Of a stretch of DNA of 64,000 nt, positions 12,343 to 36,671 are shown one piece after another. The stretch comes from Undibacterium sp. KW1 (GTDB lineage: Bacteria > Pseudomonadota > Gammaproteobacteria > Burkholderiales > Burkholderiaceae_D), in NCBI RefSeq assembly GCF_009937955.1, contig NZ_AP018439.1, forward strand, positions 62,001 to 126,000. The letters are read 5' to 3'. How positions within the stretch are numbered: position 1 is the stretch's first letter; each line of letters opens with the position of its first letter. A program made the position numbers and the translations under genes. A model generated the notes under the pieces. That model had not been told where the DNA came from. It saw only the letters and a list, made by a program, of their open reading frames with translations, and made no database searches.

Positions 12343-13926
12343 ATGAAAAAACTGTTGAAGAACATGCTGGCGGGGGCTGCTTTGCTGGTCACTGTCGGTT
12401 TCACCTCTGTCGCGTCGGCGCAGGATGCCTCGGCCAAAGCAGAACCTGCGGCAGCTTCTGCTGCCTCAGTTACTGCGTCGGCCAGCGCTTCTGCACCTGC
12501 AGCGGCTCCGGCTTCTGCTGCTGTGGTGGCGCCTGCTTCTGCCCCGGCAGCGGCGGCTGAACCTGCGGCAGCCAGTGCTGCCGCCGCACCTGCACCAACG
12601 CCAAATAAAGGCGACACTGCCTGGATGATGGTTGCCACCTTGCTGGTCATCCTGATGACCATACCTGGCCTGGCACTGTTCTATGGTGGCCTGGTCCGTT
12701 CCAAGAATATGCTGTCTATCCTGATGCAGGTCTTCATGATCTTCGCCGTGATTATTGTTCTGTGGTGCATCTATGGCTATTCGCTGGCATTTACTGAAGG
12801 TGGCAGGTTCATCGGTTCGTTTGACCGCCTGTTCCTGAAAGGTATCTGGGACCCGGCCAAGGCGGCGTTTGGTACGGCCGCGACATTCAGCAAAGGCGTA
12901 GTGATTCCTGAGTTTGCGTATGTGGCCTTCCAGGCGACCTTTGCAGCGATCACTTGCGGCCTGATCATCGGTGCTTTTGCAGAACGTGCAAAATTCACTG
13001 CTGTGTTGTTGTTCGTGGTCTTGTGGTTCACGTTCAGCTACCTGCCGATCGCTCACATGGTCTGGTTCTGGACTGGCCCTGACGCGATCAAGGATGCTGC
13101 AACCCTGGCGACAGAAACTGCCAAAGCTGGTTTCCTGTTCCAAAAAGGCGCGCTGGACTTCGCAGGTGGTACCGTCGTGCATATCAATGCTGCGGTCGCT
13201 GGTCTGGTTGGTGCTTACCTGATAGGCAAACGTGTAGGTTATGGTAAAGAATCCATGGCACCTCACTCCCTGACAATGACGATGATAGGTGCGTCGCTGT
13301 TGTGGGTGGGCTGGTTTGGTTTCAATGCCGGTTCCGCACTGGAAGCAGGCGATGTCGCAGCACTGGCTTTCATCAATACTTTGCTGGCAACGGCTGCCGC
13401 AACTGTGTCATGGGTATTTGGTGAGTGGATGTCCAAAGGCAAGCCTTCCATGCTGGGCGGCGCATCTGGTGCGGTAGCCGGTCTCGTCGCGATTACGCCA
13501 GCTTGCGGCTTCGTCGGCCCTATGGGTGCCCTGGTCATCGGCTTGCTGGCAGGTATTGTTTGCCTGTGGGGTGTCAATGGCCTCAAACGCCTGCTGGGTG
13601 CAGATGACTCCCTTGACGTCTTCGGTGTGCATGGCGTGGGCGGTATCCTGGGTGCCTTGTTGACCGGTGTGTTTGCTGCACCATCCCTCGGCGGTCAAGG
13701 TATATTCGACTATGTCACCAACAAAATGTCGGCTGATCCTTACGACATCTTCGGTCAGGTCATGACACAGGCGACTGCAGTTGGCACGACCATCATCTGG
13801 TCAGGTGTCGTGTCCTTCGTCGCTTACAAACTGGTTGATCTGGTAGTTGGCCTGCGTGTACCGGAAGATGAAGAACGTGAAGGTCTGGACATCACCAGCC
13901 ATGGTGAGTCTGCTTACCACTCTTGA
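12343..13926 (+). CDS. amtB: ammonium transporter AmtB with long Ala-rich exported N-terminus
   Basis: After a signal peptide (cut near A-S-A-Q-D) there is an Ala/Pro-rich linker of about 60 residues and then the eleven-helix Amt core. Diagnostic stretches include D-F-A-G-G-T-V-V-H-I-N (first pore His) and D-V-F-G-V-H-G-V-G-G-I-L-G (second pore His). The cytoplasmic tail ends V-P-E-D-E-E-R-E-G-L-D, a common end where GlnK docks. At 527 residues it is longer than E. coli AmtB because of the linker. AGGGAG lies upstream; a strong terminator follows. Confidence 0.93.
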   Translation: MKKLLKNMLAGAALLVTVGFTSVASAQDASAKAEPAAASAASVTASASASAPAAAPASAAVVAPASAPAAAAEPAAASAAAAPAPTPNKGDTAWMMVATLLVILMTIPGLALFYGGLVRSKNMLSILMQVFMIFAVIIVLWCIYGYSLAFTEGGRFIGSFDRLFLKGIWDPAKAAFGTAATFSKGVVIPEFAYVAFQATFAAITCGLIIGAFAERAKFTAVLLFVVLWFTFSYLPIAHMVWFWTGPDAIKDAATLATETAKAGFLFQKGALDFAGGTVVHINAAVAGLVGAYLIGKRVGYGKESMAPHSLTMTMIGASLLWVGWFGFNAGSALEAGDVAALAFINTLLATAAATVSWVFGEWMSKGKPSMLGGASGAVAGLVAITPACGFVGPMGALVIGLLAGIVCLWGVNGLKRLLGADDSLDVFGVHGVGGILGALLTGVFAAPSLGGQGIFDYVTNKMSADPYDIFGQVMTQATAVGTTIIWSGVVSFVAYKLVDLVVGLRVPEDEEREGLDITSHGESAYHS

Positions 13927-19774: not shown

Positions 19775-20821
19775 ATGTCAGAAAGCCAGCAAAACTGGAT
19801 AGATTTACGCAGTGACACCGTCACCCGACCTACTCCTGCCATGCGTGAACTCATGCATACTGCCGAACTCGGTGATGATGTGTATGGGGATGATCCCACA
19901 GTCAACCGCCTGCAAGACTATGCCGCCGACCTGTTTGGCTATGAAGCTGCTCTGTTCGCCCCATCCGGCACACAAAGCAATTTGCTGGCCCTGCTCGCAC
20001 ATTGCGCCCGCGGTGATGAATACATCGTCGGGCAAGAGGCGCACACTTATAAATACGAGGGCGGTGGTGCTGCCGTGCTGGGCAGCATACAACCACAGCC
20101 CCTGACCAACCAGGCAGACGGCAGCATTGCCCTGGACGATATTGCCAATGCCATCAAGCCAGACGATTTTCACTTTGCCCGCAGCCGTTTGCTGGCGCTG
20201 GAAAATACCATAGGCGGCAAGGTCCTGCCACCTGACTACCTACAAGCTGCCACCAGCCTCGCCCATGAGCGCGGCCTGGCTACCCATCTGGATGGCGCAC
20301 GCATCTGCAATGCCATCGTCAAGCTGGGCATCAGCCCCAGGCAGGCGGTACAGGGTTTTGACAGTGTCTCGGTCTGTTTGTCCAAGGGTCTGGGCGCACC
20401 CATAGGTTCTGTGCTGTGTGGTAGCCACGACTTGATCGCTCAGGCCAAACGCTGGCGCAAGATGCTCGGTGGCGGCATGCGCCAGGCCGGCATGCTTGCT
20501 GCTGCCGGTTTGTATGCGCTGGAACATCATATTCCGCGCCTGGCAGAAGACCATGCCAATGCAGAACGCCTGGCAAATGGCTTGCGCCAGATCAGCGCCT
20601 TGCAAGTGCAGACGCCGCAAACCAATATCGTCTATGCCGACCTGCCCGCTACAGCCTGTGCCGGGCTGGCAGAACTCTTGCGCGAAAATGGCATCCTGGC
20701 CAGGGTCACACCGCACATGCGCATGGTCACCCATCTCGATGTCCCGGCTGCCGATATCGATAAAGTGCTGTCTGTATTCCAGACCTACTTCAGCAAGCAT
20801 CCCGGCGTATCGTCTATCTGA
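19775..20821 (+). CDS. ltaE: low-specificity L-threonine aldolase
   Basis: The start at 19775 ([17 protein letters not shown]) follows AAGGA; a longer frame from 19730 adds 15 residues without a site. Landmarks of the PLP-dependent aldolase are [11 protein letters not shown], the S-G-T-Q-S-N loop and the Lys in [11 protein letters not shown]. It splits L-threonine/allo-threonine into glycine and acetaldehyde in the cytoplasm. The last 8 bases overlap the convergent gene. Confidence 0.9.
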
Positions 20822-21821
20822 CATCCTGCATGGGGCTGTACAGGATGATGCGGCTGACATGCAGGCTGGTCTGGTTTTCGCATAGTCTTGCATGATCCAC
20901 ATAGGGCAGGCTACTTAGCCCCAGCCCCAGGTTGCTTTGCGGGTATTTGGCCTTGATGATGACATTGAACAGGCTCAGGCACTGGTGCAAATCACGCTGC
21001 CTTGGCTGTGAGAGATTTTCCAGGCTGAAGCTGACAGAGTTTCTCTCATGCGCCTGTCCCGGTTTCTGCTTTATCGATACCGGGAAAGAGACGCTGTTAT
21101 TGTTTGCGGCATTGGTGATGGTTTGCAGCCAGCTACGGGTGGCTGCGTCATACACAATACGGCAACTCAGAATGTCGCCAGGTTTGACTGGCATGCTGGG
21201 ACCGCCAAAGCAGGTTTGCGCAGTTGTTTGTTTGCTGCCAGCATGCACATACTGACCGCACACCCACCAGCCCGCATGATGTCCTGTGCCAATTGTTGGG
21301 CTATAGCTGAGTACTGCCTGCAAGCCACCATCCATGTTTTCAACATTATTGTCCTGACCAGGCCGCAGGCAGGGCCACAGATACGCATGTGCCTGCTCAC
21401 TGCTCAGAAAAGGTACTTGCAACTGCGCCTGTACTGAAACCCAGTTATTGCCAGGGGCTGCGGTAATGCTCAGTTTGCTGTCTGGTACTGCCGGTTTCTC
21501 AAAACAGTCAGCACCTGGTTCTGCATGTAGTGCAGGTGACCCTGAGAAGAAGACTGCATCGCCTGCATGCAAGACCTGATGGTGATACATGATGGCGTAA
21601 TGTTTGACGTAAAAGAAAAAACTGATGCGGTCATCTGCTGCCGCAAATGCCTTGGCTTCTGCCAGCGTCATGCATGACATGCGGCAGACTTCGAGATGAT
21701 GGCTGTCTTCATCAAGTACTGCCATGCCGCCTATTCTTTGCCATTGCAGGCCGGGTTCTTCTGGCGCAAAAATAACCAGAGGATCAATGTCATCAGCGAC
21801 GAGTAGTTTTTTTTCTGTCAT
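20814..21821 (-). CDS. unknown protein with beta-sandwich region, last gene of the sigma-54 operon
   Basis: The preferred start is 21821 (M-T-E-K-K-L-L-V-A-D-D); an alternative at 21854 adds 11 residues. The product (about 335 aa) has no signal peptide. The C-terminal two thirds looks like a beta sandwich: G-L-Q-A-V-L-S-Y-S then A-G-W-W-V-C-G-Q-Y-V-H, then V-K-P-G-D-I-L-S-C. The W/G-rich strands followed by P-G-D resemble eqolisin/lectin-like jelly rolls, but catalytic Glu/Gln residues cannot be assigned. It is third in an operon with two other unknown genes and overlaps the end of ltaE by 8 bases. Confidence 0.6.
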   Translation of the reverse strand: MTEKKLLVADDIDPLVIFAPEEPGLQWQRIGGMAVLDEDSHHLEVCRMSCMTLAEAKAFAAADDRISFFFYVKHYAIMYHHQVLHAGDAVFFSGSPALHAEPGADCFEKPAVPDSKLSITAAPGNNWVSVQAQLQVPFLSSEQAHAYLWPCLRPGQDNNVENMDGGLQAVLSYSPTIGTGHHAGWWVCGQYVHAGSKQTTAQTCFGGPSMPVKPGDILSCRIVYDAATRSWLQTITNAANNNSVSFPVSIKQKPGQAHERNSVSFSLENLSQPRQRDLHQCLSLFNVIIKAKYPQSNLGLGLSSLPYVDHARLCENQTSLHVSRIILYSPMQDVR

Positions 21822-21891
21822 CATGTCTATCCTGATTTTGTCAGCAGCCTGCATAATTTTTTATCGTGCTTTACCGCACGCATACAAAGCA

Positions 21892-22185
21892 TCAACCCGC
21901 ATTGCCATCACTTTTGCGGCGGTGATAATTCGGTTTTATGTTGTTGACCGTTGGCACTGATTTGTCCCGTTTGCGGCGGTCGAAGCCAGTTTTGGCACCA
22001 GAAAAAAGACTGCGAAAATTCTCTATCGCCGCAGCTTCTTCAGCCTCACTAGGTGTGTGTTCGCCAAACAAATTAGCCTGCAATCTCAGCATGGGCGGCA
22101 GACAATCCTGAAAAAGCGCAAAGTCTGCAACAGGATCAAGTTTCAATAGCATCTCTGCATTCACGAATTGCTGTGCGGGCTTCAT
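21892..22185 (-). CDS. small unknown protein (97 aa) of the sigma-54 operon
   Basis: The start at 22185 (M-K-P-A-Q-Q-F-V-N-A-E-M) is set by AGGAG six bases upstream. The product is helical with D-P-V-A-D-F-A-L-F-Q-D-C-L-P-P-M-L-R-L-Q-A-N-L-F-G and a basic C-terminus (D-R-R-K-R-D-K). No known domain is recognised. It sits 43 bases downstream of the first operon gene and 70 upstream of the third. Confidence 0.55.
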   Translation of the reverse strand: MKPAQQFVNAEMLLKLDPVADFALFQDCLPPMLRLQANLFGEHTPSEAEEAAAIENFRSLFSGAKTGFDRRKRDKSVPTVNNIKPNYHRRKSDGNAG

Positions 22186-22228
22186 ACGTGACTCCTGGAA
22201 GAATATAGGCATGACTCGTTGCTCCGGA

Positions 22229-22771
22229 TTATTTGTAAAACAGGGCATGCTGCAACATCCCCATGTCCAGCAGGTCCTGTGCAGTCTTGCCAGGCTTGAC
22301 GGCAGGTTTGCGGGTTGGTGCAGACGGGGCTACTGGCTGTTCTTCAGCCATGGTTTCCACCTTCTTCTCGGGCTTCAGGCTGACCGTGGTGGACCATGGC
22401 GTATCTTTTGAGGCCCAGGTAGTCGCCCACAGGGCGTACGGCACTTCGAGCACTGAAGGTGCCGGTTCTGGCAAGGGGCGCAAACGCAAGTGGGTAGAAG
22501 TGTGCACAGCGGCAGACCAGGCAGCCTGCGGGTCTTGTGGGCGGGTCACTGGCAACTGAGTGACCGTACCTATGCTGGACCAGCCCCAGCTAAGCCTGGC
22601 GCGTTCTACATTTTTTTGTATCAGTACACCACGGGTTTCATTGTAATAAACATCGTCTGTCAGCAAGCGCATGGCAATATTGCGCGCCAGCCTGGCCTTC
22701 AAGGCCATTTTGCTGAGCAGCATGAATAACAGCAGGTTAAGGGCAATTAATAAAATTTCAGTGGTAAGCAT
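22229..22771 (-). CDS. membrane-anchored unknown protein (180 aa), first gene of the sigma-54 operon
   Basis: AAGGAGA upstream fixes the start at 22771. An N-terminal transmembrane helix (T-E-I-L-L-I-A-L-N-L-L-L-F-M-L-L) is followed by a cytoplasmic or periplasmic region with repeated tryptophans (L-S-W-G-W-S, A-A-W-S-A-A, A-L-W-A-T-T-W) and a Pro/Lys-rich tail. I do not recognise the family. A near-consensus sigma-54 promoter lies 54-68 bases upstream, and an FHA sigma-54 activator is divergent. Confidence 0.6.
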   Translation of the reverse strand: MLTTEILLIALNLLLFMLLSKMALKARLARNIAMRLLTDDVYYNETRGVLIQKNVERARLSWGWSSIGTVTQLPVTRPQDPQAAWSAAVHTSTHLRLRPLPEPAPSVLEVPYALWATTWASKDTPWSTTVSLKPEKKVETMAEEQPVAPSAPTRKPAVKPGKTAQDLLDMGMLQHALFYK

Positions 22772-22824
22772 GATGATCTCCTTCAGGGGGCAAGTACGTT
22801 CACTTGCGCAATGCATGCCTCTTT

Positions 22825-22839
22825 GCAAACGCCGTGCCA
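22825..22839 (-). promoter_or_regulatory. sigma-54 promoter of the three-gene unknown operon
   Basis: On the minus strand the sequence reads TGGCACGGCGTTTGCA. GG (-24) and GC (-12) are ten bases apart and the match to TGGCAC-N5-TTGCA is complete. Expected transcription start is near 22813, about 40 bases before the first ATG. A sigma-54 activator gene is divergent at 22960. Confidence 0.8.
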
Positions 22840-22878
22840 GCACTGTTTCCCTAGGGAGAAGGCATTTTTTTAGCCCAA

Positions 22879-22907
22879 TTGACATGTAAAGCATACAAAT
22901 TTACATT
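22879..22907 (+). promoter_or_regulatory. sigma-70-type promoter of the FHA activator gene
   Basis: TTGACA (22879-22884), a 17-base spacer and TACATT (22902-22907). The spacing is ideal and the elements are close to consensus. It would start transcription near 22914, about 45 bases before the activator ATG. Confidence 0.55.
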
Positions 22908-22959
22908 GGCGCTTTACACTAACGGTTTACACCCAAGTACAGAATCCGCAGTAAACACA

Positions 22960-24479
22960 ATGACCGATACCGACTACACCCTGACCTCACCCCTGGCCAA
23001 ACTGGCCGACAATGCCTCGGCCCTGCTGGGCCTGACCATCATCTGGCATCCAGACAGCCAGCGCATAGGTGAGCAGTTCATGGCCAGCAACCCTGACGGC
23101 CTGGTCGAAATCAACCGTTTCCTCCCGCTATTCCGCCATCCTGGCAAAGATGGTCTCCCGCTGGGTTATGGTGGTATCTCGCGTGAACCTGTGCGCATCA
23201 GTCGCGATGCTGGTGACAACATTCTCATCACCCCCCCGCCAGCCGTATGGTGGTAGAAGTGAATGGAGTAGAGATCAACGCAGCCGTGGCGCTCAGCCGT
23301 GAACAGGTAGAAAGAGGCGTCATTCTTTGCCTGGGCCGCGCCATCATCATCTGCCTGCACTGGATGCGCTGCCTGCCCAAGCACAATCCCGCGCTGGGTT
23401 TCATCGGTGTAGGCAGCGCCGCCATCGTCGCCCGCGACCAGATACGCCAGGTCGCCGGCACCGAGCTGCCCGTCCTGCTATTGGGTGAAACCGGCACAGG
23501 CAAAGAAATCGCCGCCCGCGCTATCCACGCTTACAGCAAGCGTGCCAATGCAGAACTGGTCAGTGTCAACATGGCAGCCCTGAATGAAGCCCTGGCCGCA
23601 GCTGACTTGTTCGGTGCCGTCAAAGGCGCCTACACAGGTGCACAAAACGCCCGCAAAGGTCTGTTTGCCGAGGCAGAAGGTGCAACACTCTTCCTCGATG
23701 AGATAGGCAATACCCCAGCCAGCATACAACCCATGCTCTTGCGCGTACTGGAGAGCGGCGATTACCGCCCGCTGGGTGCCCAGCAAGACCAAAAGTCCAG
23801 CGCCCGCCTGATCGCCGCGACCGACCAGGATTTATATAGCGAAGGCTTCAACCAGGCCCTGCTGCGCCGCCTCGAGAGCTTCATCATCCATCTGCCACCC
23901 CTGCGCACCCGCCGTGAAGATATAGGCGTATTGTTGCTGCACCTGCTCAGCAATAGCAAACTGCCAAATGAAATAGGCACCAGCCTGCCGGTGGCACTGG
24001 TCAGCGAATTTGCCAATTACGACTGGCCCGGCAATATCCGCCAGTTGTCCCACGTACTGCGCCGCACCCTGCTAGCCCTGCAACTCGGCGAAGTGCCGCA
24101 ACTCGCCAGCCTGGTCAAAACCACCCACCATGCCCCATCCAGCGTGACACAGGCCAGCATCAGCACAGACAGTAAATTCCCTCAGCCAGCCAGCCCTCGC
24201 AAGAAATTGGCCGAACTCAGTGACGAAGATGTTTTGCGCGCGATGGAAAACAACGACTGGTATATACAGGGAGCCGCGCAAGAGCTGGGTGTCTCACGGC
24301 CATCGATGTACAAGCTGCTCGACAACCACAGCCAGATACGCCGCGCTGAACAGATACCCACAGAAGAAATTCGCCAGTCACTGGAAACCAGTGCTGGCGA
24401 TGTAGAAGCCTGCGCCGCCTTATTGAAAACGCCTAGTGAGGCTTTGAGGCGGTATTTGAGGATAACAATACTTAACTGA
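22960..24479 (+). CDS. FHA-domain sigma-54 activator, split by a one-base frameshift
   Basis: The frame from the ATG at 22960 encodes an FHA-like N-terminal domain (P-V-R-I-S-R-D-A-G-D-N) and stops at 23256. A shifted frame continues seamlessly from 23247 (M-V-V-E-V-N-G-V-E-I-N-A-A-V-A-L-S). Adding one C to the C7 run at 23231-23237 joins them as I-T-P-P-A-S-R-M-V-V-E. The second part has the AAA+ core: Walker A G-E-T-G-T-G-K-E, G-A-Y-T-G-A (a GAFTGA variant), L-F-L-D-E-I-G, and a Fis-type helix-turn-helix (A-A-Q-E-L-G-V-S-R-P-S-M-Y-K), then a 45-residue extra tail. Joined length is 506 residues. FHA domains bind phosphothreonine; a kinase gene is nearby. Confidence 0.85.
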
Positions 24480-24574
24480 ATTCACTTTAAAGCTATTTCT
24501 TGGCAATGAAGACAAATTAATAAAGAAGTATTTAAATTATGGAAGCAATGAAAATCACATTGCTTCCACGTGTT

Positions 24575-25039
24575 TTAACCCCCACTGCCCGATTCAACAT
24601 CAACTTCGGGGTCTGGTAAATAGAAGAATTCTGAGCTTATAACGTTGCCTGAAGAGTCTTTGAAATCAGCTGAAAATGAGATAGTAAATCCCCAAAAACC
24701 AATACTATCTGCACTCATGGTCATGGTTGCACCGTCAACAGGGCAAGCTGTAACTGATGTTCCAACGACGTTGGATTCACCATTAGGTTGCTTACCTTTG
24801 CAAATCGCGATAAATGCACTAGCTGTAACGGTAACTGTATCTTGAGGATTCGTTGGAGTACCAACAAAATTGAAAGTGACGGTATCGCCAACGCATAGGT
24901 AAGGACGACCTGTAGTAGTGTCTGTGGGAAGTACGGGGGAAAATTTCCCATGCGCTGAAACTGTGGCCCGGCTTTGCGGGATACCCTGATTAAAGTAGGT
25001 CGTGAAAGTGTAATTTACCGGAGGTTTTGGATCACTCAT
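24575..25039 (-). CDS. unknown protein (154 aa)
   Basis: The product starts M-S-D-P-K-P-P-V-N-Y-T-F-T-T-Y-F-N and is rich in Thr, Ser and Val in alternating patterns that suggest beta strands (D-T-V-T-F-N-F-V-G-T, T-V-T-V-T-A-S-A). It has three Cys and ends in an acidic Gly/Ser tail. No signal peptide is present. It is on the kinase strand, 138 bases downstream of its stop. The function is unknown. It might be a target or partner of the kinase, an inference from position only. Confidence 0.55.
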   Translation of the reverse strand: MSDPKPPVNYTFTTYFNQGIPQSRATVSAHGKFSPVLPTDTTTGRPYLCVGDTVTFNFVGTPTNPQDTVTVTASAFIAICKGKQPNGESNVVGTSVTACPVDGATMTMSADSIGFWGFTISFSADFKDSSGNVISSEFFYLPDPEVDVESGSGG

Positions 25040-25177
25040 ATTCTATCTTTCAAGTTGTTGGATGAAATGAATTATCATATGTGTACATGATATTCATGCT
25101 TGTAGTTTCAATAATTAGAGATGTCATATTATTGAAATTATTACTTCCGAAATTTGGTTAGCAATAACTGTTCCAAC

Positions 25178-27409
25178 TTATTTTGATTGATTTACAGTTA
25201 TTTTTACGTATCGTGCGTCACGTCTTAAATTGAGTAAGTCGGGTTCGGACTCCAGAGATTTAATTGAGTAACCAAATTCGATTGCTTTACTAATTGCTGC
25301 GAGTGCTTCATCTCTTTGACCTAAAAGTTCATAAGCGAGGCCAACTCGAAAATGAACATTGGCATCTTTGGGACCTAACTTTAGAGCGCGTTGCATGTAT
25401 TCGTTTGCTTTTTCTTTGTCACCAACTCGAGCAGAATACAAGCCAAAGCGCGAAACAAGTACCACATCATTTGGAGATATTTGTAATCTTGGTAATAGCA
25501 GTTCAATAGCTTTACCATATGCTTTCTTCGCTTCGTTGGCACGACCAGGTATCCAAAGTAGGCTATCCCCAAGATTTGCCCATCCTAGGTATTTTGCTGG
25601 ATTGCCTTTATTCGGTGTAACGGCTAGTTCAAAAGCTTCAGAAGCACCTAGATAGTCTCTTTTTTTGAATAGTGCAACTCCTAAACTTGAATACAAGAGA
25701 GCACTTGGCCTGATCAAAAGTCCTTGTTGTAAGACTTGCATTCCTTCATCATCTCTATTTTGCTTTACTAACGTGTTATTCAAGTTTGCATAGGCGAAAA
25801 CAGTGTCAGGCTGAATTTTAATACTTAGCCTGAAAAAATTTTCAGCAAGTGAATAATTGCTCTTCTCAAAGTAAATGATGCCAAGTTCTTCCGCAAACAT
25901 TCGCTCTTGGGGGAATCTCTCCAACCCACTCTTTGCATATCGAATGGCATCCTCATACTGCTTCATTTTCCTCAATGCTATGATGCGTCCAAAAGAGGCA
26001 AAGATATTGTCAGGATCAAGCTTCAGTGCTTTTTCATACTCTTCCAGGGCTTTATCATTCTTTCCCATTTGAGAATTAACTCTCGCAACAGCAATATGAC
26101 TGATTGCAAGTTTGTCGTTTAATTTTAAGGCCTGCTGTGCGCTAGCATCGGCTTTTTGAAGTATCACCTCATCTTGTTTGTCACTATCATAGCGAGAAGT
26201 GTAGATGATAGATAATCCAGCAACAGCGCCAGCATGTTGAGGATTGCGCTTTAATATTGCTTCAAAATTTGCTTCTGCAACATCAAGACTGCCTGGTCTA
26301 TCAAATTGTTTCAACGCCTCCACCCCTTGTTTCATAGCCAACGACTCTGAAAACGGCTTCAACGACATCTTGTCCATCTCAAGATAAGGCACAGCCTGCC
26401 AGGCCCCATATCCCAGCGCGATGAGGAAAGCCCCTGCAATAGCAAAGCGCTTTGGCTTGCTCAGCGACTTCCCGCCTTTACCAGAGACACTGCTGATCTT
26501 GTCCGCATCGCTTGCTGCTACAAGCACCGGCACACTAATCAACCCACGTAATTGCTCATGCACCTGCTGCATACTGCTCAGGCGTTTCTCAGTCTGTCTG
26601 GCCGTCATCACCAGCACCAGCTTGATCAGTTCTGGTTTGCATCCGGTTGGGAATTCCCAGGTGTCTGAGTTCGATTGCATGAGGGCGGCGGCCAGGGCCA
26701 GGCCGCTGGCGTTGGCGAAGGGGCGTTGGCCGGTCAGGGTTTCGTAGAGGATGACGCCGAGGGCATAGATGTCGCTTTGGGCGCTGGCCGGGCTGCCCAT
26801 CATGCGTTCTGGTGCCATGTAGGCTATCGTGCCTTGCGGGTCGAGCTGGCTCATGGACGTGGTGGCTTGTGCATCGGTTTTTGATGCGAGGCCAAAGTCG
26901 AGTATGCGGACTTTGCCGTCGGGTTCGACCATGAGGTTCGATGGTTTCAGGTCGCCATGGATAAGGCCGCTGGCGTGGGCCTCTTGCATGGCTTCAGCGA
27001 CCTGGCTGATGATGTTGATGGCTTGCTGTTCTGGCAGCGGCTGCTGTGCTTGTTGTGAGTTTTGCTGCAGCAATTGCTTGAGGGTCAGGCCGGGTACGAG
27101 TTCCATGACGATGGAGTGGCTATTGTCTTCATCTTCAATGGCAAAGATTTTGACGAAGGCGGGGTGCTTGAGCGACGCGGCCAGGCGGGCTTCCTTGAGC
27201 AGGCTACTGGTCTGGATTGCGCTTCCTGCACCTTCTGTGGCTTTGAGTTGTTTGATGGCGACAGGGCGGCAGAGTTTGCTGTCCCAGGCTTCATGGACTT
27301 GCCCAAAGCCGCCCTCACCAAGACGTTTTTTGAATTCGTAATGTCTGAGGCTGACGCTTACTTCCTCTACTCCAGTATTGTCGTTGCTAGCCAGATTGGT
27401 ATTTTGCAT
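25178..27409 (-). CDS. membrane Ser/Thr protein kinase with C-terminal TPRs
   Basis: Kinase domain (about 25-285): G-loop G-E-G-G-F-G (31-36), Lys53 in V-A-I-K, H-G-D-L-K-P-S-N (catalytic Asp153; HGD rather than HRD), D-F-G (171-173) and A-P-E (199-201). A transmembrane helix lies at about 325-345 (A-I-A-G-A-F-L-I-A-L-G-Y). The following 390 residues hold TPRs (for example G-K-N-D-K-A-L-E-E-Y-E-K-A-L-K-L-D-P-D-N), probably periplasmic. It lies downstream of the FHA activator on the other strand, which makes it a candidate source of the phosphothreonine that activator reads. Third-base composition is AT-richer in the TPR half than in the kinase half. Confidence 0.9.
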   Translation of the reverse strand: MQNTNLASNDNTGVEEVSVSLRHYEFKKRLGEGGFGQVHEAWDSKLCRPVAIKQLKATEGAGSAIQTSSLLKEARLAASLKHPAFVKIFAIEDEDNSHSIVMELVPGLTLKQLLQQNSQQAQQPLPEQQAINIISQVAEAMQEAHASGLIHGDLKPSNLMVEPDGKVRILDFGLASKTDAQATTSMSQLDPQGTIAYMAPERMMGSPASAQSDIYALGVILYETLTGQRPFANASGLALAAALMQSNSDTWEFPTGCKPELIKLVLVMTARQTEKRLSSMQQVHEQLRGLISVPVLVAASDADKISSVSGKGGKSLSKPKRFAIAGAFLIALGYGAWQAVPYLEMDKMSLKPFSESLAMKQGVEALKQFDRPGSLDVAEANFEAILKRNPQHAGAVAGLSIIYTSRYDSDKQDEVILQKADASAQQALKLNDKLAISHIAVARVNSQMGKNDKALEEYEKALKLDPDNIFASFGRIIALRKMKQYEDAIRYAKSGLERFPQERMFAEELGIIYFEKSNYSLAENFFRLSIKIQPDTVFAYANLNNTLVKQNRDDEGMQVLQQGLLIRPSALLYSSLGVALFKKRDYLGASEAFELAVTPNKGNPAKYLGWANLGDSLLWIPGRANEAKKAYGKAIELLLPRLQISPNDVVLVSRFGLYSARVGDKEKANEYMQRALKLGPKDANVHFRVGLAYELLGQRDEALAAISKAIEFGYSIKSLESEPDLLNLRRDARYVKITVNQSK

Positions 27410-27655: not shown

Positions 27656-28251
27656 CTAAATAGTTGGTTCTGGCTTGATGATGCTGACTTGCCCTTTGAG
27701 CATTTCTATCAATTCAGCTTCAAAGCTGGCAGCGAGTTTTTGTTTAAGGCTGATGCTGATGGTGGCTGATTCGGTATAGGCCAGCCCGGTGACGCTGGCG
27801 GTGAATTTGTCGCACAGGCGGCGTACGTGGGATTCATCTGCATAGGCGCAGACGATGTCCCATTCAAGCATGTATTCAACTTCTGTCAGTTCTGCGAGCT
27901 TGAAGGCGTCAGAGATGGCCTGGCCATAAGCGCGGGTCAGGCCGCCTGCGCCGAGCTTGATGCCGCCCCAGTAGCGCACGACCACGGCCAGCACATTAGT
28001 CACGTCCTTGTGTACCAACACGTTGTACATGGGCTTGGCGGCGGTGCCTGATGGTTCGCCATCGTCATCCAGGCCAGAGTCGCCGCTGCAGATCAGCGCC
28101 CAGCAGACATGGACGGCATCCGGGTGTTGCGCCCGTATCTGTGCCAGTTGCTGGCGTGCCTCGGCTCGGCTGTTGAGGGGTAGAGCTGGCCCAGGAAACG
28201 GCTTTTCTTGATTTCAATTTCGGCAAAAGCGGGGGCGGCGAGCTGGTACAT
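27656..28251 (-). pseudogene. yigZ: YigZ/IMPACT family protein, frameshifted
   Basis: The frame from 28251 reads M-Y-Q-L-A-A-P-A-F-A-E-I-E-I-K-K-S-R-F-L-G-Q-L-Y-P, the family's N-terminus. It then leaves frame; another frame continues L-N-S-R-A-E-A-R-Q-Q-L-A-Q-I-R with the signature D-D-D-G-E-P-S-G-T-A-A-K-P-M and V-V-V-R-Y-W-G-G-I-K-L-G-A-G-G-L. One base is missing in the run of four G at 28178-28181. The repaired protein would be 198 residues, normal for YigZ. The slip may be real or a sequencing error. YigZ is a UPF0029 protein possibly linked to translation control. Confidence 0.8.
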
Positions 28252-36662: not shown

Positions 36663-36671
36663 GGGAATACC

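Follow-up and report, generated by a model that had tools for sequence, protein, structure and literature searches.

A candidate kinase, FHA activator and sigma-54 promoter module conserved in Undibacterium and related bacteria

The PpkA-Fha pair of the type VI secretion system (T6SS) is a threonine phosphorylation system, and control of sigma-54 activators by phosphothreonine has, to our knowledge, been little described. Enhancer-binding proteins with a forkhead-associated (FHA) domain have reportedly been found in Myxococcus xanthus by Jelsbak et al. in 2005. The locus analysed here lies at positions 20814-27409 of the window, the whole stretch of 64,000 nucleotides taken from contig positions 62001-126000 in the 6.69 Mb genome of the freshwater bacterium Undibacterium sp. 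KW1, and combines an FHA-type sigma-54 activator, a Hanks Ser/Thr kinase with tetratricopeptide repeats (TPRs) and a sigma-54 promoter in front of three open reading frames (ORF1 to ORF3). With the T6SS pair it has a membrane Hanks kinase and an FHA reader in common, but the proposed output is a sigma-54 promoter. With the M. xanthus proteins it shares the joining of FHA to a sigma-54 activator; the differences are a convergent TPR-kinase, a gene for a small protein designated here the DPE-tail protein and a dedicated divergent promoter, all in a different phylum. A description of this locus has not been found in the literature searched, most subscription papers being outside the reach of that search.

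We consider it probable, at roughly 60%, that the locus represents a conserved module in which the kinase acts through phosphothreonine and the FHA activator on the divergent sigma-54 promoter and hence on ORF1-ORF2-ORF3. Signalling is inferred to run in this direction: the membrane kinase, with the catalytic domain inside and the TPRs beyond one hydrophobic segment (topology by eye), would respond to a signal and make phosphothreonine on itself or on a partner, and the FHA domain of the activator would bind this phosphothreonine. Binding would then free the AAA+ ring, held at the palindrome TGTAAA..TTTACA, to open the promoter, with expression of ORF1-ORF2-ORF3 as the consequence. A second site, in the window's clade, might place the DPE-tail gene under this activator as well. 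The arrangement observed in the window is as follows.

20814-21824, minus strand: ORF3, 336 amino acids, nearest relatives in Undibacterium, resemblance to Peptidase_A4 below the cut-off (E 0.013)
21892-22185, minus strand: ORF2, 97 amino acids, no family match
22229-22771, minus strand: ORF1, 180 amino acids, hydrophobic segment at the N-terminus (by eye)
22825-22839, minus strand: sigma-54 -24/-12 site TGGCACGGCGTTTGC, full consensus, 53 bp 5' of the ORF1 start codon
22885-22905, no strand: palindrome TGTAAAGCATACAAATTTACA, candidate activator-binding site
22960-24479, plus strand: FHA-AAA+-Fis sigma-54 activator, divergent from ORF1-ORF2-ORF3, frame broken in this assembly
24575-25039, minus strand: DPE-tail protein, 154 amino acids, small beta protein with the tail LPDPEVDVESGSGG, tentatively of PixA-like fold
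25161-25175, minus strand: second sigma-54-like site TGGAACAGTTATTGC, one mismatch, directly past the kinase stop
25178-27409, minus strand: Hanks Ser/Thr kinase, 743 amino acids, C-terminus of TPRs, one hydrophobic segment at about residues 320-345 (by eye)

The original prediction, made from the DNA alone, had described a full-consensus sigma-54 promoter before three unrecognised genes, a divergent sigma-54 activator with an FHA domain and, next to it, a transmembrane Ser/Thr kinase with TPRs. The full-consensus site, the three ORFs, the AAA+ and Fis helix-turn-helix domains of the activator and the Hanks kinase with its TPRs have all been recovered, the membrane segment as judged by eye. 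Its beta-sandwich protein probably corresponds to ORF3, while the more conserved protein at 24575-25039, whose gene lies between activator and kinase, had gone unmentioned, and the activator does not form a single open frame in this assembly.

Sequence comparison in three overlapping samples, of 60 relatives, 59 named activator loci and 37 kinase loci, gives good support for activator, kinase and divergent sigma-54 promoter occurring together and in synteny. Co-occurrence in related genomes, which the original prediction had named as its check, was found for activator and kinase: an activator ortholog (E <= 1e-120; next best 6.6e-55) is present in 23 of the 60 genomes, and a TPR-kinase (E <= 1e-90), convergent with the activator, accompanies it in 22 of these 23 as opposed to none of the 37 others. 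The single activator genome without a kinase match (G022) has a contig that ends beside the activator. Equally, a convergent kinase match above 80 bits is found in 54 of the 59 named loci, the five remaining ones (L137, L151, L153, L160 and L181) being situated on contigs of 3.3 to 18.9 kb. The kinase itself matches PF00069 (E 1.2e-52), with the catalytic motifs APE, HxDLK, VAIK and DFG seen in 55, 53, 51 and 49 of 56 loci in loose counts over three frames each.

The GG/GC -24/-12 elements, at the right spacing and conserved, make a divergent sigma-54 promoter a well supported prediction. In 420 bp upstream of the activator at 60 loci, compared with 100 dinucleotide shuffles, perfect sites on the strand pointing away from the activator occur in 23 regions (shuffle mean 0.12, maximum 1) and sites with up to one mismatch in 39 (shuffle mean 1.32, maximum 5), with 2 on the opposite strand and 0 for the reversed pattern as controls. 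The palindrome, as TGTAAA-N5-12-TTTACA, is present in 23 of the 60 upstream regions against 0.03 expected from shuffles, and its copy in the window is the sole match in the KW1 genome at up to three mismatches; the same genome carries one sigma-54 gene. Present in several genera together with one dedicated, conserved promoter, the kinase-activator pair would offer a compact system in which to test how phosphothreonine controls sigma-54 activators.

The activator matches the AAA+ sigma-54 interaction domain PF00158 (E 1e-49) and a Fis helix-turn-helix in Pfam, and its GAFTGA-type loop reads GAYTGA, with Y for F, invariantly in 21 of 21 relatives and also in the window fragment. The FHA domain claimed for it holds up in fold comparison: in a model of the ortholog from the relative YM2, an FHA fold at the N-terminus is named in 16 of the first 20 structure-comparison rows, and the FHA-domain chain 3gqs of the PDB matches the activator at E 0.019. 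An N-terminal FHA domain is supported as a model-based assignment. Pfam gives no significant FHA match in the activator, a single one of 15 members matching at E 0.22, and the 50 rows listed by whole-model Foldseek are all AAA+ proteins.

Several observations weigh against the proposed circuit. An S.NG stretch is usual in FHA domains and is not recognisable in the activator alignment. The activator of the window is split into the frames 22960-23256 and 23247-24479, the break lying in a run of seven C at 23231-23237. Upstream regions without a sigma-54 site at up to one mismatch amount to 21 of 60, including 8 titled Massilia and every one of the 3 titled Janthinobacterium, and at L151 and L181, 2.9 and 3.9 kb behind the activator are free of a kinase match. 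Furthermore, 10 of the 37 kinase loci have no activator match, and all 10 have kept the DPE-tail ORF. These kinase loci consist of 36 chosen by the authors from the family kinase matches (E <= 1e-90 in 113 of 392 family genomes, 8 of 44 genera) and of L196, which came via a peptide match; since 10 of them lack an activator match, the kinase appears to have a job apart from the activator.

A possible, if on balance unlikely, alternative is that the kinase mainly serves the DPE-tail protein, together with exported peptides where present, the FHA activator reads that state or has joined later, and ORF1 to ORF3 are accessory. The DPE-tail ORF, found directly behind the kinase in 30 of the 37 kinase loci, is the most constant neighbour of the kinase, with an overlap of 4 bases between its mechanically called start and the kinase stop in 17 of these 30; gene calls, made as greedy longest ORFs, are error-prone in GC-rich genomes. 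Its retention in every activator-less locus points in the same direction, as does genome G329, where kinase, DPE-tail gene, peptides, HlyD and a C39 exporter stand in one cluster and a search run without a positive control gave no FHA-activator match at 1e-5. On the other hand, where the activator is present in these loci it is convergent with the kinase and within about 1 kb (27 of 27), the promoter is conserved, and activator and kinase without a detected DPE-tail ORF occur in 7 of the 37 kinase loci and in 13 of 54 in the 59-locus survey. The circuit from kinase to promoter remains the preferred reading.

For the DPE-tail protein, a PixA-like fold is suggested tentatively, the compared system being the PixA/AidA inclusion body proteins (PF12306; PDB 4lzk, 4pib; PMC9060813). 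The PF12306 profile matches none of 20 DPE-tail members at E <= 10, and the best sequence hit in the PDB has a value of 0.035. Like ORF1 and ORF2, the protein is without a family match in Pfam and NCBIfam. At L164:11484-13460, four minus-strand ORFs of 152, 173, 152 and 150 amino acids between activator and kinase possibly constitute an array of DPE-tail genes, the tail being seen in one of them.

Activator and kinase stand farther apart, by 6.4-6.7 kb, in YM2, U. pigrum and U. hunanense, where the space between them contains 10, 9 and 8 ORFs with a GGPE core, respectively, together with HlyD and a C39-peptidase ABC (ATP-binding cassette) exporter. Peptides with a double-glycine (GG) leader are exported by C39 ABC transporters, and the presence of GG peptides with a C39 transporter and HlyD in these three relatives and in G329 resembles such systems; the difference is that the peptides of the relatives have short PE-x-x-V cores resembling the tail of a neighbouring protein. 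Arrays of such tiny peptides, with 8 to 10 ORFs and similar acidic cores, are located at L075:7300-9057 and 12741-13185 (YM2), L078 and L079. Related peptides number 170 at E <= 0.01, the 120 listed coming from Undibacterium, Massilia, Roseateles and metagenomes, while matches among the family genomes occur in 13 of 392, several of them weak. The cores resemble the DPE-tail of the same genome: in a permutation over 7 groups that are mutually related and whose peptides were picked by expression or by eye, 8 of 5040 pairings, the own one counted, score at least as well as the own pairing. The match is carried by 4 of the 7 groups; in Massilia Root418, Pseudoduganella aquatica and Massilia Root351, another tail outscores the own one. 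That the peptide genes are themselves under sigma-54 control was considered and rejected, as no site with up to 2 mismatches lies within 200 bases of any of the 27 peptide ORFs in YM2, U. pigrum and U. hunanense.

As the tail occupies the position of a last strand, a mimicry reading is invited, which we regard as speculative and rather doubtful: exported GG peptides, whether the strain's own or those of kin, would mimic the C-terminal strand of the DPE-tail protein and compete with the tail for one site, perhaps located among the TPRs of the kinase. The outcome would reach the FHA activator and a sigma-54 promoter in the form of phosphothreonine, which would make this a peptide-sensing Ser/Thr-kinase circuit. 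The window strain, with no GG peptides or C39 exporter between activator and kinase, would then be a listener without peptides of its own. Should the resemblance prove functional, it would suggest that a Hanks kinase reads a peptide signal and that a PixA-like protein has a role. Elsewhere, the KW1 genome has a weak peptide match with internal stops, 2 kb from another C39 exporter. This C39-type ABC exporter, at contig positions 602925-604985 (L247), is 51% identical to that of YM2 and has an HlyD match nearby, a pattern search having found no GG peptides beside it.

The broken activator frame raises the question whether the activator of this strain is a true pseudogene and the circuit off. 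The frame is broken in the only assembly seen, and C runs readily undergo genuine slippage, even phase variation; yet the two frames are still 98% and 96% identical to YM2, and promoter, palindrome and kinase are intact, which makes this explanation quite improbable. In relatives with complete copies the activator is one frame. Furthermore, a gene at about 27656-28180, which we take to be yigZ-like, encodes 124 amino acids here as compared to 195-198 in five relatives and, aligned with YM2, has a single-base gap near 28176, as assembly errors would give; because of this second gap, an assembly error is the likely, though not proven, cause of the break in the activator. Against the window, 2 of 48 YM2 genes look split, namely the activator and one read as a length difference between genes, and 0 of 44 in the reverse comparison. 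The latter, flagged as a second candidate frameshift of the window at 36663, has been rejected, the letters looking, in our own reading, like a one-base length difference between genes.

A lone sigma-54 site would be weak evidence, because the pattern is found 59 times in the KW1 genome against 13 times for its reversal, but that the site before ORF1 is a chance match is next to negligible in view of sites on the same side, at a similar place and with varying spacers, in 23 to 39 of 60 loci where 0.12 to 1.32 are expected. A sigma-54 site before the DPE-tail gene has been rejected as a general feature, as sites of the TGGAACAGTTATTGC type, between 30 bases inside and 120 behind the kinase stop, are limited, at up to one mismatch, to 5 of 56 loci, each belonging to the window's clade. 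Equally, frequent matches of the TGGCATATGAATTGC type have been rejected as promoters since they lie in kinase codons for LAYELL (frame read by the author).

The genes placed at the promoter differ by clade. The claim of a promoter driving a three-gene operon has survived as far as the promoter is concerned, whereas ORF1-ORF2-ORF3 are confined to part of Undibacterium: they are the output of one clade, and other clades place other genes there. ORF3 is found in 6 of the 60 genomes, and relatives of ORF1 head the promoter in the window's clade, with versions of 95 amino acids in the same place in U. curvum, U. crateris and U. rugosum. In 11 Undibacterium-type loci the promoter position is taken by a flavin adenine dinucleotide (FAD) gene, which in G031 matches FAD_binding_3 and Trp_halogenase of Pfam; most of these loci also have LANC_like, HopA1 and APH genes, as far as their contigs extend. 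A protein of about 330-350 amino acids is shared at this position by eight loci titled Massilia or Telluria, the Telluria copy, the only one tested, matching AAA_16.

The APH-like, HopA1 and LanC-like genes and, in G031, a Cys-rich repeat ORF, all beside the same activator-kinase pair, liken the sister Undibacterium loci to class V lanthipeptide clusters (PMC9486802). In comparison, the sister loci add extra TPR kinases and the FAD gene, and the locus of the window is without such a cluster. Lanthipeptide-like clusters in which at least two TPR kinases accompany the activator are L089 (G031), L088 (G002), L094 (G010), L097 (G024) and others like them. In G031, one of the kinase copies appears degenerate by eye.

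The matches listed by PADLOC are to kinase and AAA+ domains. A comparison of ORF3 with the PDB by sequence gave nothing useful. The homologue search for ORF3 extends to Tagaea, Balneolaceae, Polyangiales and chytrid fungi, with no named function among the homologues; those from chytrids are P0263, P0273, P0275, P0277 and P0283, two of which (P0275 and P0283) contain PF00734.

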